Positions 32,642 to 39,566 of a DNA stretch of 64,000 nucleotides are shown here, one piece after another; position 1 is the first letter of the stretch, and the number at the start of each line of letters is the position of its first letter. The DNA comes from Myxococcaceae bacterium JPH2 (GTDB lineage: Bacteria; Myxococcota; Myxococcia; Myxococcales; Myxococcaceae), in the NCBI GenBank assembly GCA_016458225.1, contig JAEMGR010000001.1, positions 682,001 to 746,000 on the forward strand, written 5' to 3'. Under the pieces are notes generated by a model. That model saw only the letters and a list, made by a program, of their open reading frames with translations. It searched no databases and had not been told where the DNA came from. The position numbers were made by a program, and so were the translations under genes.

Positions 32642-32921
32642 CCAAACGCCCGGCGAGCGGACCGTCACGCGAACTTCGGCGCGGCGTAAGCACAAGGTCC
32701 AATATCCGTACCCTGACACTCAGAGTATAAGAGAGCGCATCGAGGAGACCCGACAGCTCCTCGGCCTGCCGGGCGCCTGGGTCCTTCCGCACCATCCGCG
32801 CAGCGCGCCTTGGACGACGGCCGCGTCGTCAATCTCACCTCAAGAATCAAGGCAGCACAGGCCCCGCGACCGCCAGGACCCGACCGGCCAGCTTTCTTAA
32901 TCACTCTCAGGGAGGGAATCC

Positions 32922-34475
32922 ATGGTCACACTCGCACTCCTCGCGGCACTGACAACGGCAACCGTTCCGCCCGGGTTCGTCACCAACCCAAGGTCGGGCG
33001 AGACGCGTGGCGGCACTTCAACGGTCGGCATCCAGATTCTGGTCGGCATGTTCATCAGTGCCCCCAACGTCCCAGTGGAGATCCAGGTCCTCAAGAAGCC
33101 CGACCTCGACCCGACGCTCGACGCGAACTGGGACCTCCTGACCACGGCGTACTCGAACACGACGCCCGGCTCCTGGAATGCGAACTCACCCGACCCGGTC
33201 TACCTGCTGTCCAAGTACGTCACGCCGGTCCCTACCACCAACGAAGTCCAGCGCTGGCCCGCGGGCAAGATGGTGAAGCTTCGAGTCGTCCAGAAGTTCC
33301 AATCGGGCGCACCCGGGCCGCTGCCCTTCATCGATGATGCCACCAACTCATCGTGCTACTACGAACACACACAGGACTCCTGGCAGAACTACATCGCCGC
33401 GTGTGCCTCTCAAGCCCCTGCAATCGCTGTCGTATCCACCGCGCTCAATCCAGCCGATCTCCACGCGGGAAGCAACGCCTACGACTACCTGGGCAGGAAA
33501 GGTGACTCCGGCGACGCCGCGACCACAGTCTATTACACCACCGGGCTCCTCCCGTTGACGCTGCAGGGCTTCAAGACCGCGTACGGGTTCCCCACCAACG
33601 AAGTGACGGCCATCTATTACAATGCCGCCGACCTCGGGTTCGGGCGCGAGATGCACTGCAAGTCATTCGCCGCGCTCTTGGGAACGGGCGTGGCCTGCTA
33701 CGTGAGCAATTACGGCAATGTCGCGGGACAAGGCGCCTTTCCGGCGACACCTGCGACCGCCCTCGCCCTGGCCCATAGCGGATCCGGCCCATTCGCAACG
33801 GTGGCGATGGTCTACACGCCGCCGAACACCCTGGCGGATGCCATCAAGTTTGTGGTGTACGACGCGAACGGGACGCGCACCAATACCGCCCAACTCGACT
33901 CCACGGGGCAGCACAAATCGGTGCCCAACAATTGCCTGGCGTGTCACGGCCTCAACTCCAGTGCCAACGCGCTGGGAACAGGCGTCATCGTCGTCAACAC
34001 CGCGGCCCGGTTCCTCCCCTTCGACCCCTACTCCTTCACCTTTCAGAGCCAGAGTGACTTCGAGGCGCAGCGGGAGAACTTCCGCAAGCTGAACGCCCTC
34101 GTCGCGCTCACCCCCTTGTCCCCAGAAACCAGCAACTTCCTCACGGGACTCTATGGCGGGAAGTCGCCTTCGGACCCCACGGCGGTCTCGGTGGGCACCT
34201 ACATTCCTCCCGCTTGGAAGACGAACAATGCGGACCGAGCGATGTACGAGGGCGTCATCAGGCCGCACTGCCGAGGGTGCCACATGACGAGCACCTCGAC
34301 CGCCTACGACTTCGACAGCCCGGCCGACTTGTCCAAATCCCTCATCGAGTTCGACCCGTGCAGTACCAGCCATCTGATGCCACATGCGGAGCAGACGCTC
34401 CGAAACTTCTGGAACAGCGGCGCTCGCTCCTACCTGGCGCAGAAGTACAACATCGCGAACCTCTGCTCGCCGTGA
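32922..34475 (+). CDS. Exported protein with two CxxCH motifs, function unknown
   Basis: 517 aa. Start ATG 32922 has a strong RBS (GGGAGGGAATCC). The N-terminal 15 residues (MVTLALLAALTTATV) look like a short signal. Two CxxCH motifs are far apart: NNCLACHGLNS at about residue 345 and HCRGCHMTST at about residue 450, each a possible heme c site. The middle is beta-rich with IYYNAADLGFGREMHCKSFA. Base composition and codon use are less GC-rich than neighbours, and the 280-bp leader is AT-richer as well, which suggests acquisition by transfer. Possibly related to the two lipoproteins near 13-16 kb only by its CxxCH; no clear similarity. Confidence 0.65.
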   Translation: MVTLALLAALTTATVPPGFVTNPRSGETRGGTSTVGIQILVGMFISAPNVPVEIQVLKKPDLDPTLDANWDLLTTAYSNTTPGSWNANSPDPVYLLSKYVTPVPTTNEVQRWPAGKMVKLRVVQKFQSGAPGPLPFIDDATNSSCYYEHTQDSWQNYIAACASQAPAIAVVSTALNPADLHAGSNAYDYLGRKGDSGDAATTVYYTTGLLPLTLQGFKTAYGFPTNEVTAIYYNAADLGFGREMHCKSFAALLGTGVACYVSNYGNVAGQGAFPATPATALALAHSGSGPFATVAMVYTPPNTLADAIKFVVYDANGTRTNTAQLDSTGQHKSVPNNCLACHGLNSSANALGTGVIVVNTAARFLPFDPYSFTFQSQSDFEAQRENFRKLNALVALTPLSPETSNFLTGLYGGKSPSDPTAVSVGTYIPPAWKTNNADRAMYEGVIRPHCRGCHMTSTSTAYDFDSPADLSKSLIEFDPCSTSHLMPHAEQTLRNFWNSGARSYLAQKYNIANLCSP

Positions 34476-34582
34476 GCCGATGCGCGTGACTTCAGCTCGA
34501 TGCACGGAGGACTGAGGGAATCGAGGCGCCGGCGAAGGTCATGCCGCGCGCCTTGCTCGAGCCGTCCGGTGCGCAGGTGGTC

Positions 34583-36660: not shown

Positions 36661-37338
36661 TCACGCGTCCGCGAGCTGCTCGCGATCCCCAGCCGAGAGT
36701 GGCAGGGCCGACAGCTCCGCACGCACCGCGGCCTCGCGCGCGGGCTCGCCCAACACCGACGCCAGCTCCGCGCGCGCGAGGAGGACTCGGGCCCGCTCCA
36801 GCGGAACACTCTGCTCGGCGCGGGCCAGCGCCGCGTCGAGCACCTTGGCCGCCGCGGCGTCATCCCCCTTGAAGTCACGCAGCTTGCTCGCCGTCTGGAG
36901 CGCCGTCATCAGCTTCGACTGACTCTTCCTCCGAGCAGACTCCGCCTCCGGCACCTCGCGCGGATGGTTGCGCTTCACGAAGCGAAGCCAGTTGCCGCCT
37001 GGGTCCACCACGTGGAAGCGGCTCTGTCCCTTTCGCTTGCGAGCGATGCGCGGGATACCCGTGACGGGGACCTTCCCTTGGAAGCGCCGCAGCGCCTCCA
37101 GGAAGACCTCGTGCAGATCGTCAATTTCATCCAACACAATCAGGCAGGAGGCATACGACTCGGCCGGGTTGAGTCCCTTCTGGCCAAAGAGGTGCAGTTG
37201 CACATCCTCGCGCTGCACCACCGCATAGGGATTGGGCGAGACCTGCTGATACGTCACGGAGAACCCGAGGGCGCGGTAGAACCCCAGGCTCTCGGTCAGT
37301 GAAACACACGGCAACATGGGGATGGTGACAGCGTTCAT
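36661..37338 (-). CDS. VOC-family protein with an extra helical C-terminus
   Basis: 225 aa. Residues 1-130 are a VOC module: AVTIPMLPCVSLTESLGFYR, ALGFSVTY, DVQLHLFGQ and FHVVDPGGNWLRFVKR. Residues about 140-225 are an unusual helical Ala/Leu/Glu-rich extension (AAKVLDAALARAEQ, RARVLLARAELASVLGEPAR) resembling TPR-like helices. Many bleomycin-resistance proteins stop at about 130 aa, so the extension is extra. It starts 24 bp after the MarR gene stop, so it is the likely target of that regulator. Role could be drug binding or detoxification. Confidence 0.75.
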   Translation of the reverse strand: MNAVTIPMLPCVSLTESLGFYRALGFSVTYQQVSPNPYAVVQREDVQLHLFGQKGLNPAESYASCLIVLDEIDDLHEVFLEALRRFQGKVPVTGIPRIARKRKGQSRFHVVDPGGNWLRFVKRNHPREVPEAESARRKSQSKLMTALQTASKLRDFKGDDAAAAKVLDAALARAEQSVPLERARVLLARAELASVLGEPAREAAVRAELSALPLSAGDREQLADA

Positions 37339-37362
37339 GGACTCAGCCCTCGCTCCGTCCGC

Positions 37363-37833
37363 TCACGGACTCCCGTCGTCCCACTGCGCGCGGTCCTGTT
37401 CCAGGCTCTCTCGGAGTTGCCGCAGGGTCTCCAGCGCGCCATGCAGTGCCTTCACGCGCGACGTGGCCCCCAGTCGATTGGCCCACTTCGCCAGCTCCAA
37501 CTCGACGCGCCGGAGGGCCTCGCGCCCCTTCGGAAGGAGCGCGACTCGCTTCGCCCGCCGATGAAAGGGGTTCTCCTCGTATTGGATGAACCCATCCTTC
37601 TCCAGGGCGTCCGCCGTCTGCTGCACGCTCTGGCGCCGCAGCCCCATGATTCGCGCAATGGTGGCCACGGGCTCGGGGCCATGGTCCACCACCCCGAGCA
37701 CCTGCCACCGCGCGCTGCTGAGCCCCACCGGAGCGCTCAGCCGATCTCCCGCCTCCAGCAACAGTCCATTCAGCCGGAAGACCTCCACATTCAACCGCGC
37801 GATGGCCTCGCCCTCGGGCGTCAACTGACTCAT
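37363..37833 (-). CDS. MarR-family transcription regulator
   Basis: 156 aa from ATG 37833 (the frame extends upstream but this is the family start). The winged helix is clear: ARWQVLGVVDHGPEPVATIA, RIMGLRRQSVQQTADALEKD, and the wing IQYEENPFHRRAKRVALLP followed by KGREALRR. A perfect 14-bp palindrome lies 20 bp before the ATG. It is the first gene of a two-gene operon with the VOC protein, a common arrangement for drug- or phenol-responsive MarR repressors. Ligand unknown. Confidence 0.9.
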   Translation of the reverse strand: MSQLTPEGEAIARLNVEVFRLNGLLLEAGDRLSAPVGLSSARWQVLGVVDHGPEPVATIARIMGLRRQSVQQTADALEKDGFIQYEENPFHRRAKRVALLPKGREALRRVELELAKWANRLGATSRVKALHGALETLRQLRESLEQDRAQWDDGSP

Positions 37834-38198
37834 GCCCAATTTCTGCCATGACGACAGGTGCCTGTCAAAACGACTGTTCCCCAATAGCGATGAGGGCGCG
37901 CCCTCACAGGAGCCGGACGCAGCAACTGAGGACAAGGAACCCAATATGGCTGTCGGACCTGCGCACATCGTCGACTCGAAAGCATCGCCATCCCAGGGAA
38001 GGTTCACCACCAACGCCAAGTCGAGCAGCGGGAAGAGTTCGTGCCTGTCTTAAGCGTTGGCGGCTGTCAGCAGTTCGGCCAGCGGCAGCCCTCGCGCGAC
38101 GGGGCAACTCTTCTTATGGAGCAGCATCTCTCAGGAAATACCGCTGTGGCCCACGAGAACGATGACCTCCATCGCCGTACAGTCATCGTATCGAGGGG
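37834..38198. other. 365-bp stretch with no convincing gene
   Basis: It holds the MarR operator at its left end and otherwise no frame I can support. Minus-strand reading of about 38040-38160 gives short runs that look like worn coding sequence (a VGHSG stretch, then a 25-residue basic run broken by stops), so it may be decayed remains of an earlier gene. GC is lower than in the flanking MarR region. Confidence 0.4.
37853..37866. promoter_or_regulatory. Perfect 14-bp palindrome, likely MarR operator
   Basis: GACAGGTGCCTGTC is a self-complementary 14-mer centred 26 bp upstream of the MarR start. On the minus strand its outer edge creates TTGACA, a -35-like hexamer. A MarR dimer bound here would block that promoter, so autorepression is inferred. 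Confidence 0.6.
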
Positions 38199-39386
38199 TC
38201 AGTCGTCGGAAACGACGGAATCCTTCTCCGCCCTCTTCCATCCGAACGCGGGACCATGCACTGCGAGGTTCAGCCTCTCAGCCAACGCGCGCCCGCCGGC
38301 CTTTTTCCCGAAAGAGCGCTCCTTATTGGTCACAGGGACGGCCTGAAGGAAGCCCACCTCTGCCTTCGCGACATCGCGAGGCCAGCCCCACGGAGGAACG
38401 AGCAGGAAGGAGCGGCGTGGATTTGTCGACTCAACCAATGCATAGGGCTTGAAGTCGCCGGAGTTGATGCTGGCGAGGGCGCTCATCACCTGTTCATCAA
38501 CATCCGGCGCATGGGCAACCAGTTCGTACGCACCCAGACGGCGCGCGAAGGTCGCGTAGGTGACATACGGTCGTTGGTCAGTGGTAAAAAAGCAGAACAC
38601 GAAGATGTCCGGCTCGCCCACGACCTTCGCGGGGAAGGAGTGCGCAGTTCCCGGGCCGGCGTTCTTGTACAGCTCGCCCAATGCGAATGTTCGCACTTTC
38701 TTTCGCTCGGACGCAGCGATGGCCTCCTCTGAGGCCGGAGCATTCAGGTTCCCCACTCGGTAGGCCGAAAGCACCTCGCGCGTCATCGCCATGGCTCCAT
38801 CACCGGCGAGAACGACGGGGCGATTGTGCGTACCGCCCAACTTCGCCCTGATTGCATCGAGCGAGGGCTTGGAACCGGCATCTTTGGGGTGAACCTCGTA
38901 CGCCACCGGAACCTTTGACCAATCGTATCCAGCCTTCTCCAGGGACGCTCGGATTCGTCCCTCCAGTTTCGCTCCGTCGCACTGATTATTGGTGTCGCAA
39001 CGTATCGCAAACAGGAGCCCGTCGACGCCTGCGAGTGCTCGCGCCTCCGCCACGGCCCATTCGCTCTCAGGCACAACACTGCCCGACTCAATGGCATAGA
39101 CATGCATTCGCACTTGATAGCCATCGATCGGCTCGACCTCCGGTGGCGTGAAGTCGAAAGAGACCGACCGAGTGGCTCCAAACCCAATGCCTGTCAGCCG
39201 GCCCTTGGACTCCGCCGGAAGCGCCTCGTGGAGTCTGTGGACGATGGAGAGCGGCAGCCCCCGATCCTCCGACACGACTACGACTTTGTAATTCAGCCGC
39301 TTGGAATCCTCAGAGACGAACATGGCTGAGGCCGACTCCCCAAAGAAGAGGCATACGCAAATCAACCACGACGCACGTTTCATCAT
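38199..39386 (-). CDS. Exported protein with an MglA-like but catalytically dead GTPase fold
   Basis: 395 aa. Signal peptide of about 21 residues (MKRASWLICVCLFFGESASA). Residues about 33-160 follow the MglA/Ras-like GTPase pattern seen in the cytoplasmic myxobacterial switch protein: strand YKVVVVSED, helix VHRLHEALPAES, KGRLTGIGFGATRSVSFDF, GYQVRMHVYAI, LAGVDGLLFAI and a late strand VAYEVHPKD where MglA has a NKxD motif. The nucleotide residues are gone: SEDRGLPLS stands where the P-loop GxxxxGKT should be, and IESGS replaces the switch-II PGQ. An exported, non-binding GTPase fold would be unusual. Residues 190-395 are of unknown fold. GC is lower than in neighbours. Confidence 0.6.
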   Translation of the reverse strand: MMKRASWLICVCLFFGESASAMFVSEDSKRLNYKVVVVSEDRGLPLSIVHRLHEALPAESKGRLTGIGFGATRSVSFDFTPPEVEPIDGYQVRMHVYAIESGSVVPESEWAVAEARALAGVDGLLFAIRCDTNNQCDGAKLEGRIRASLEKAGYDWSKVPVAYEVHPKDAGSKPSLDAIRAKLGGTHNRPVVLAGDGAMAMTREVLSAYRVGNLNAPASEEAIAASERKKVRTFALGELYKNAGPGTAHSFPAKVVGEPDIFVFCFFTTDQRPYVTYATFARRLGAYELVAHAPDVDEQVMSALASINSGDFKPYALVESTNPRRSFLLVPPWGWPRDVAKAEVGFLQAVPVTNKERSFGKKAGGRALAERLNLAVHGPAFGWKRAEKDSVVSDD

Positions 39387-39566
39387 GCATGATTACCATG
39401 AAAACGAGTTCGGGCGGTTCCCATTTGCCCGACTGCTCGTTCTCCGCCAGCGCGCCGTCCAGGACAGCGCGCCCTCCACGCATGAGAGGAGGGGCTGAAC
39501 GGCAAGCACCCCTCCGTACCTGGGTGGGAACCAGAAATGGCATGTGGCAGGCGCGGCAAGTCCCGG

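Follow-up and report, generated by a model that had tools for sequence, protein, structure and literature searches.

We identified, on the minus strand of the window (by which we mean the whole 64,000-nucleotide stretch of DNA analysed here), a gene at positions 38199 to 39386 whose 395-amino-acid product, hereafter the window protein, is likely to be an exported pseudo-GTPase that has been reused as a binding module and joined to a second binding domain. It consists of a predicted signal peptide, an MglA domain without a nucleotide-binding site, and a SUFU-like domain. The homology to MglA, the loss or disruption of motifs G1 to G4, the signal-peptide-like N-terminus, the SUFU-like domain, the existence of relatives of the same design and the patchy, strain-specific presence of the gene are computed results; actual export, the absence of GTP binding, the binding function and the partner are inferred. 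Because four related bacteria carry shorter versions of the protein, a switch fold of the cytoplasm seems to have been reused outside the cytoplasm. A preliminary description, which gave no strand and overlooked the SUFU-like C-terminal half, had proposed an exported pseudo-GTPase derived from MglA, and this is supported as the best reading, with export inferred from sequence alone.

The 395-codon frame is intact, and its GC content at codon positions 1, 2 and 3 (0.64, 0.47 and 0.71) is typical of coding sequence. Overall GC is 0.607, compared with 0.64 to 0.70 in the neighbouring genes that were measured, which bears out the lower GC that had been remarked on in the preliminary description. 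A search of NCBIfam with the window protein gave no match, nor did a search of genome contigs with it as the query, and in a plasmid collection the sole match was a distant Arf-like protein of Deinococcus.

Homology to MglA and predicted fold

When the window protein was compared with the whole of the PDB using phmmer, only MglA chains were matched, and the alignment to Myxococcus xanthus MglA (E = 2.5e-11) extended over residues 23-184. For the AlphaFold2 model, the input alignment consisted of 24 relatives, that is, MglA and two exported relatives. Block-mean pLDDT was 66 to 92 at residues 21-210, with low confidence elsewhere (mean 61). Foldseek and VIA-align both rank MglA first, at a Z of about 21 with the best five aligned over 182 to 193 residues, and Rab and Ras proteins come after it (Z of 13.7 to 14.5). 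The structural match to MglA covers residues 22-212, encoded at 38751 to 39323 on the minus strand. Because the input alignment was rich in MglA, the model is not independent of the homology, with which it agrees; the Ras/MglA fold is a prediction.

We read the state of each nucleotide-binding motif from an alignment of the window protein to the MglA of the same genome, using the definitions of Wuichet and Sogaard-Andersen (PMC4316618). The G1 P-loop, GxxxxGK[ST], is absent, with SEDRGLPLS at residues 39-47 (39246 to 39272, minus strand) in place of GPGLCGKTT. G3 is also lost, TVPGQ being replaced by AIESG.. together with a five-residue insertion. At G2, where TETDRT has become FGATRS, the arginine, which in MglA is the arginine finger next to the conserved threonine, is retained and the threonine is a serine; at G4 the pattern [NT]KxD is not met, since NKRD has become HPKD and the aspartate alone is in place. 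G1 and G3 are gone, and G2 and G4 survive only as scattered residues. That the window protein does not bind GTP is an inference, made without nucleotide-binding data.

Predicted signal peptide and exported relatives

The window protein begins with MMKRASWLICVCLFFGESASA, followed by MFVS. Residues 1-21 (39324 to 39386, minus strand) form the predicted signal peptide, with cleavage before M22, and this signal-peptide-like segment ends exactly where MglA starts. The prediction rests on the pattern of hydrophobicity and cleavage and on an identical junction in four relatives. Of the open frames in shuffled window DNA, 0.2% had both an equally hydrophobic stretch and, at residues 19-23, a cleavage site, and under laxer thresholds 1.3% of the shuffled open frames carried a signal-peptide pattern. 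The lower figure depends on home-made thresholds and on shuffles of 2-base blocks, not on SignalP. We consider it likely that the window protein is exported, although this is judged from sequence alone.

We sought relatives in 96 genomes of the window genome's own family and found four further proteins of about 215 to 230 amino acids, encoded by genomes G002, G010, G011 and G049. Every one of them has a signal peptide of its own, and its G motifs are ruined. Their junctions read LTLPASA before SFINYSAREINLK (G010), STTASA before AYIDYEKREINLK (G011), AMPAFG before SSINEAAREINLK (G002) and ASSAFA before STVDSTAHEVHAK (G049), and the point at which signal peptide and MglA are fused is identical in all four. 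With the window genome included, the five carriers span four genus codes (g1, g3, g4 twice, and g15). The MglA descent of the exported relatives is firm, because a profile of three of them, with the window protein left out, matches M. xanthus MglA at E = 1.5e-67. Between the proteins of G010 and G011, dN/dS is about 0.46.

To compare the motifs with the rest of the domain, we used 89 alignment columns that are invariant across 14 true MglA proteins, 23 of them in G motifs and 66 elsewhere. Two functional paralogues keep 22 of the 23 motif columns. The exported protein of G010 keeps 3 of the 23 motif columns and 51 of the 66 others (Fisher p = 7e-8), that of G011 keeps 4 and 41 (p = 2e-4), and that of G002 keeps 5 and 40 (p = 1e-3); in these three members, which are the closest to MglA, the fold has clearly been retained despite the loss of the nucleotide site. 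The difference is borderline and not significant for G049 (6 of 23 versus 31 of 66, p = 0.065), and not significant for the window protein itself (4 of 23 versus 19 of 66, p = 0.22).

The contig matches to the exported profile that were read comprised the exported proteins of G010 and G011, together with MglA or paralogues. Matches of any score were considered in 38 of the 96 genomes of the family and in 86 genomes from elsewhere in the phylum; in the rest of the family, only matches above about 131 bits were covered. No exported form was seen outside the family in the 86 further genomes searched with the exported profile, where the inspected candidates, those whose match began early in the profile, proved to be ordinary GTPases or unrelated, though ranking alone cannot exclude divergent forms.

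The remaining claims of the preliminary description can be set against these results. It had placed the MglA pattern at residues 33-160, which held and proved to extend more widely in both the phmmer and the structural match. It had stated that the P-loop and switch residues were gone, and this also held, apart from such scattered residues as the G2 arginine. The clear signal peptide that it described stands as a prediction, given the low frequency of the pattern by chance and its recurrence in independent relatives, with a cytosolic start at Met22 still possible. It had suggested comparing a predicted structure with MglA and looking for homologues with signal peptides; the first gave a Ras/MglA fold, albeit from an MglA-rich alignment, and the second gave the four proteins above. 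Neither outcome that it named as a refutation, a structure without the Ras-like fold or a signal peptide that is not cleaved, was met, the latter at the level of prediction only, the sequence pattern being that of a cleavable signal peptide, as it also is in the relatives. Its suggestion of a periplasmic structural partner remains conjecture, with no supporting data.

Several loci in these searches had features of their own. Besides its exported copy, G002 encodes a cytosolic MglA relative (L035:2968-3633) with a damaged P-loop (GPDLAGQKT) and an intact NKRD. A degenerate MglA-like domain without a P-loop lies within a larger open frame in G164 (L241:2-2303), a single case outside the family. 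At L213:2965-4056 in G049, the exported relative is found closely downstream of a 130-amino-acid gene on the same strand, in an operon-like arrangement; that gene has no Pfam family. At L032:3430-6645 in G011, an open frame whose product has a protein-kinase-like domain at its end precedes the exported relative by 51 bp.

A SUFU-like C-terminal domain

Residues 242-375, approximately, are likely to form a divergent SUFU-like domain (38262 to 38663, minus strand), for which the Pfam score lies just below threshold. The match to Pfam SUFU (PF05076) at residues 301-373 scores 22.9 bits against a gathering cut-off of 25; in a further search the score was 23.8 bits, or 25.7 with neighbouring pieces in the frame included. 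Using hhalign, a profile that included homologues from G005 and G011 matched the family's bona fide SUFU proteins with a probability of 94% (E = 1.2e-7). A profile of the SUFU part matched no chain in the PDB. An alignment-free model was poor (pLDDT 50); its top three PDB matches were human SUFU and many more of the top 20 were SUFU, but each match was weak (E of about 0.1 or worse). The GxS signature of SUFU (GLS) is not retained: relatives show TSGLSN or TAGLSL at this position, and the window protein TFARRL.

The presence of this domain changes the reading of what the whole protein might do. SuFu proteins in bacteria are immunity proteins against many toxins, GDPD toxins included (PMC3482391). 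Only one other MglA-SUFU fusion was found, in G005 (L037:3971-4855); it is frameshifted and has no signal peptide. We also asked whether the SUFU proteins of the family might be hidden MglA fusions, and this was rejected, as no MglA part was present in 20 SUFU loci or in those from a separate search.

Genomic setting

By blastn, positions 36685 to 39562 of the window (about 2.9 kb, not assigned to a strand) correspond to only 233 bp in G014, a genome of the same genus. The block contains the gene for the window protein, a MarR-type gene (37363-38019) and most of a glyoxalase-like ORF (36661-37338). In this comparison it is specific to the strain, and gain here and loss in G014 are both compatible with the data. 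Directly upstream of the window gene is a stand-alone GDPD gene, which G014 shares at 87%. Nothing recognisable as a toxin gene adjoins the window gene, whose neighbours are the GDPD gene, the MarR-type regulator and the glyoxalase-like ORF, although no dedicated toxin search was made.

A second block, of about 1.9 kb at 32655-34570 of the window, likewise matches nothing in G014 by blastn. It contains, on the plus strand at 32922-34475, a gene for a 517-amino-acid protein that has motifs of the CxxCH type but matches no Pfam family.

Proposed mechanism and alternative explanations

In the explanation that we favour, a copy of mglA would have gained a Sec-type signal peptide immediately ahead of the MglA start. 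The nucleotide site would have been lost, with the Ras-like fold remaining to bind proteins beyond the cytoplasm. In the window genome the protein also has a SUFU-like domain; in bacteria this fold is known to bind a variety of toxins and to confer immunity. Once exported and cleaved, the protein would most likely act, in the periplasm or extracellularly, by binding through its two domains without need of a nucleotide. It may perhaps confer immunity to a toxin of kin or rivals, or neutralise it. This last step is the weakest of the explanation: it is possible, but is drawn by analogy, with no partner or toxin identified. A bolder reading, which could as easily prove wrong as right, is that Archangium's family holds a small, patchy set of exported MglA-derived pseudo-GTPases acting as nucleotide-free binders at the cell surface or in the periplasm, and that one lineage added SUFU, perhaps for recognition of kin or rivals.

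The protein might instead be a cytosolic pseudo-GTPase translated from Met22, the upstream 21 codons being a chance open extension that resembles a signal peptide. In alignments, Met22 coincides with the start of MglA and with the MFKDES start of the other MglA-SUFU fusion, which itself lacks a signal peptide; the Shine-Dalgarno-like site is better at Met22 than at Met1 (-7.3 versus -2.9 kcal/mol, spacing 11), with GGGGAG 12 bases ahead of Met22; and the cytosolic relative in G002, with its defective P-loop, is a precedent. However, few shuffled frames (about 0.2%, by our home-made criterion) contain so good a signal peptide cleaved at that position, and four of four exported relatives fuse a signal peptide to MglA at the identical residue. 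The missing Shine-Dalgarno site at Met1 says little, because the starts of true mglA and of the exported relatives mostly lack one too. We regard a cytosolic protein as unlikely. It is similarly improbable that the gene is a decaying orphan, acquired horizontally, without current function and now being lost. The extreme divergence, the lower GC and the strain-specific block would fit such a history, as would the frameshift in the G005 fusion. Against it stand the intact frame of 395 codons with coding-type GC by codon position, the predicted fold and signal peptide, which are still preserved, and dN/dS below 1 among the relatives. Least likely of all is an exported SUFU-type immunity protein for which the MglA part is a mere carrier, perhaps paired with the upstream GDPD. 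Glycerophosphodiester phosphodiesterases are among the toxins for which SuFu immunity domains have been reported (PMC3482391), and a GDPD is what the upstream gene encodes; but the pairing looks accidental, because the stand-alone GDPD is kept in G014 although the window gene's block is missing there, and we dismissed a GDPD-SUFU toxin-immunity pair as coincidence.

A further alternative concerns origin only and is compatible with the exported pseudo-GTPase explanation. The four short proteins may be one exported family, with the window protein derived from an MglA-SUFU fusion that was at first cytosolic and gained its signal peptide separately. Its MglA part is most nearly identical to that of the G005 fusion (26% over 80 columns), which leaves room for such a separate gain, and the SUFU-like C-terminus is common to both. 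On the other side, the best tree places the five exported proteins on one side of a single branch, with an indecisive support of 65/89, and every signal peptide joins at the identical residue. We lean slightly against independent origins. Given the clade support and the extreme divergence of the window protein, whose branch length is 5.4 changes per column, a shared origin with the four relatives is unproven; a single origin of the five exported proteins remains possible, neither demonstrated nor rejected.

Comparison with known systems

The exported pseudo-GTPase that we propose resembles MglA, the Group 1, Ras-like polarity GTPase of Myxococcus, in sequence over residues 22-184 and in predicted fold over residues 22-212. 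It differs from MglA in having a predicted signal peptide and an extra C-terminal domain, in the loss of G1 and G3 and the near loss of G2 and G4, and in that no mglB was seen beside its gene. A 2014 survey limited Group 1 MglA to single-domain proteins of 240 amino acids or less (PMC4316618), which the window protein exceeds with its 395 amino acids and additional domain. Its C-terminal 130 residues or so match bacterial SUFU (Imm-SuFu) by profile; unlike Imm-SuFu, they are divergent, lack the GLS signature, are fused to a dead MglA and have no recognised toxin gene adjacent. The G005 fusion has the same domain order, but differs in its frameshift, in the absence of a signal peptide and in a P-loop that is partly kept (GPAWAGKLT). 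Eukaryotic pseudoGTPases, such as the Rnd proteins, CENP-M and the pseudoGTPase domains of p190RhoGAP, keep the G-domain fold for binding without normal nucleotide cycling. These are intracellular, whereas the window protein descends from bacterial MglA and its predicted location is outside the cytoplasm. We found no earlier description of an exported MglA in the open-access literature searched, most subscription journals being outside its scope.

Ras-like small GTPases are nucleotide-dependent cytosolic switches. If our reading is true, a recurrent exported version without a nucleotide site would show how the fold can be converted to passive binding outside the cytoplasm, and would reveal, by a natural experiment, which surfaces of MglA function without GTP. 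The short exported forms are small and near to well-solved MglA structures and should therefore suit expression and structural work.
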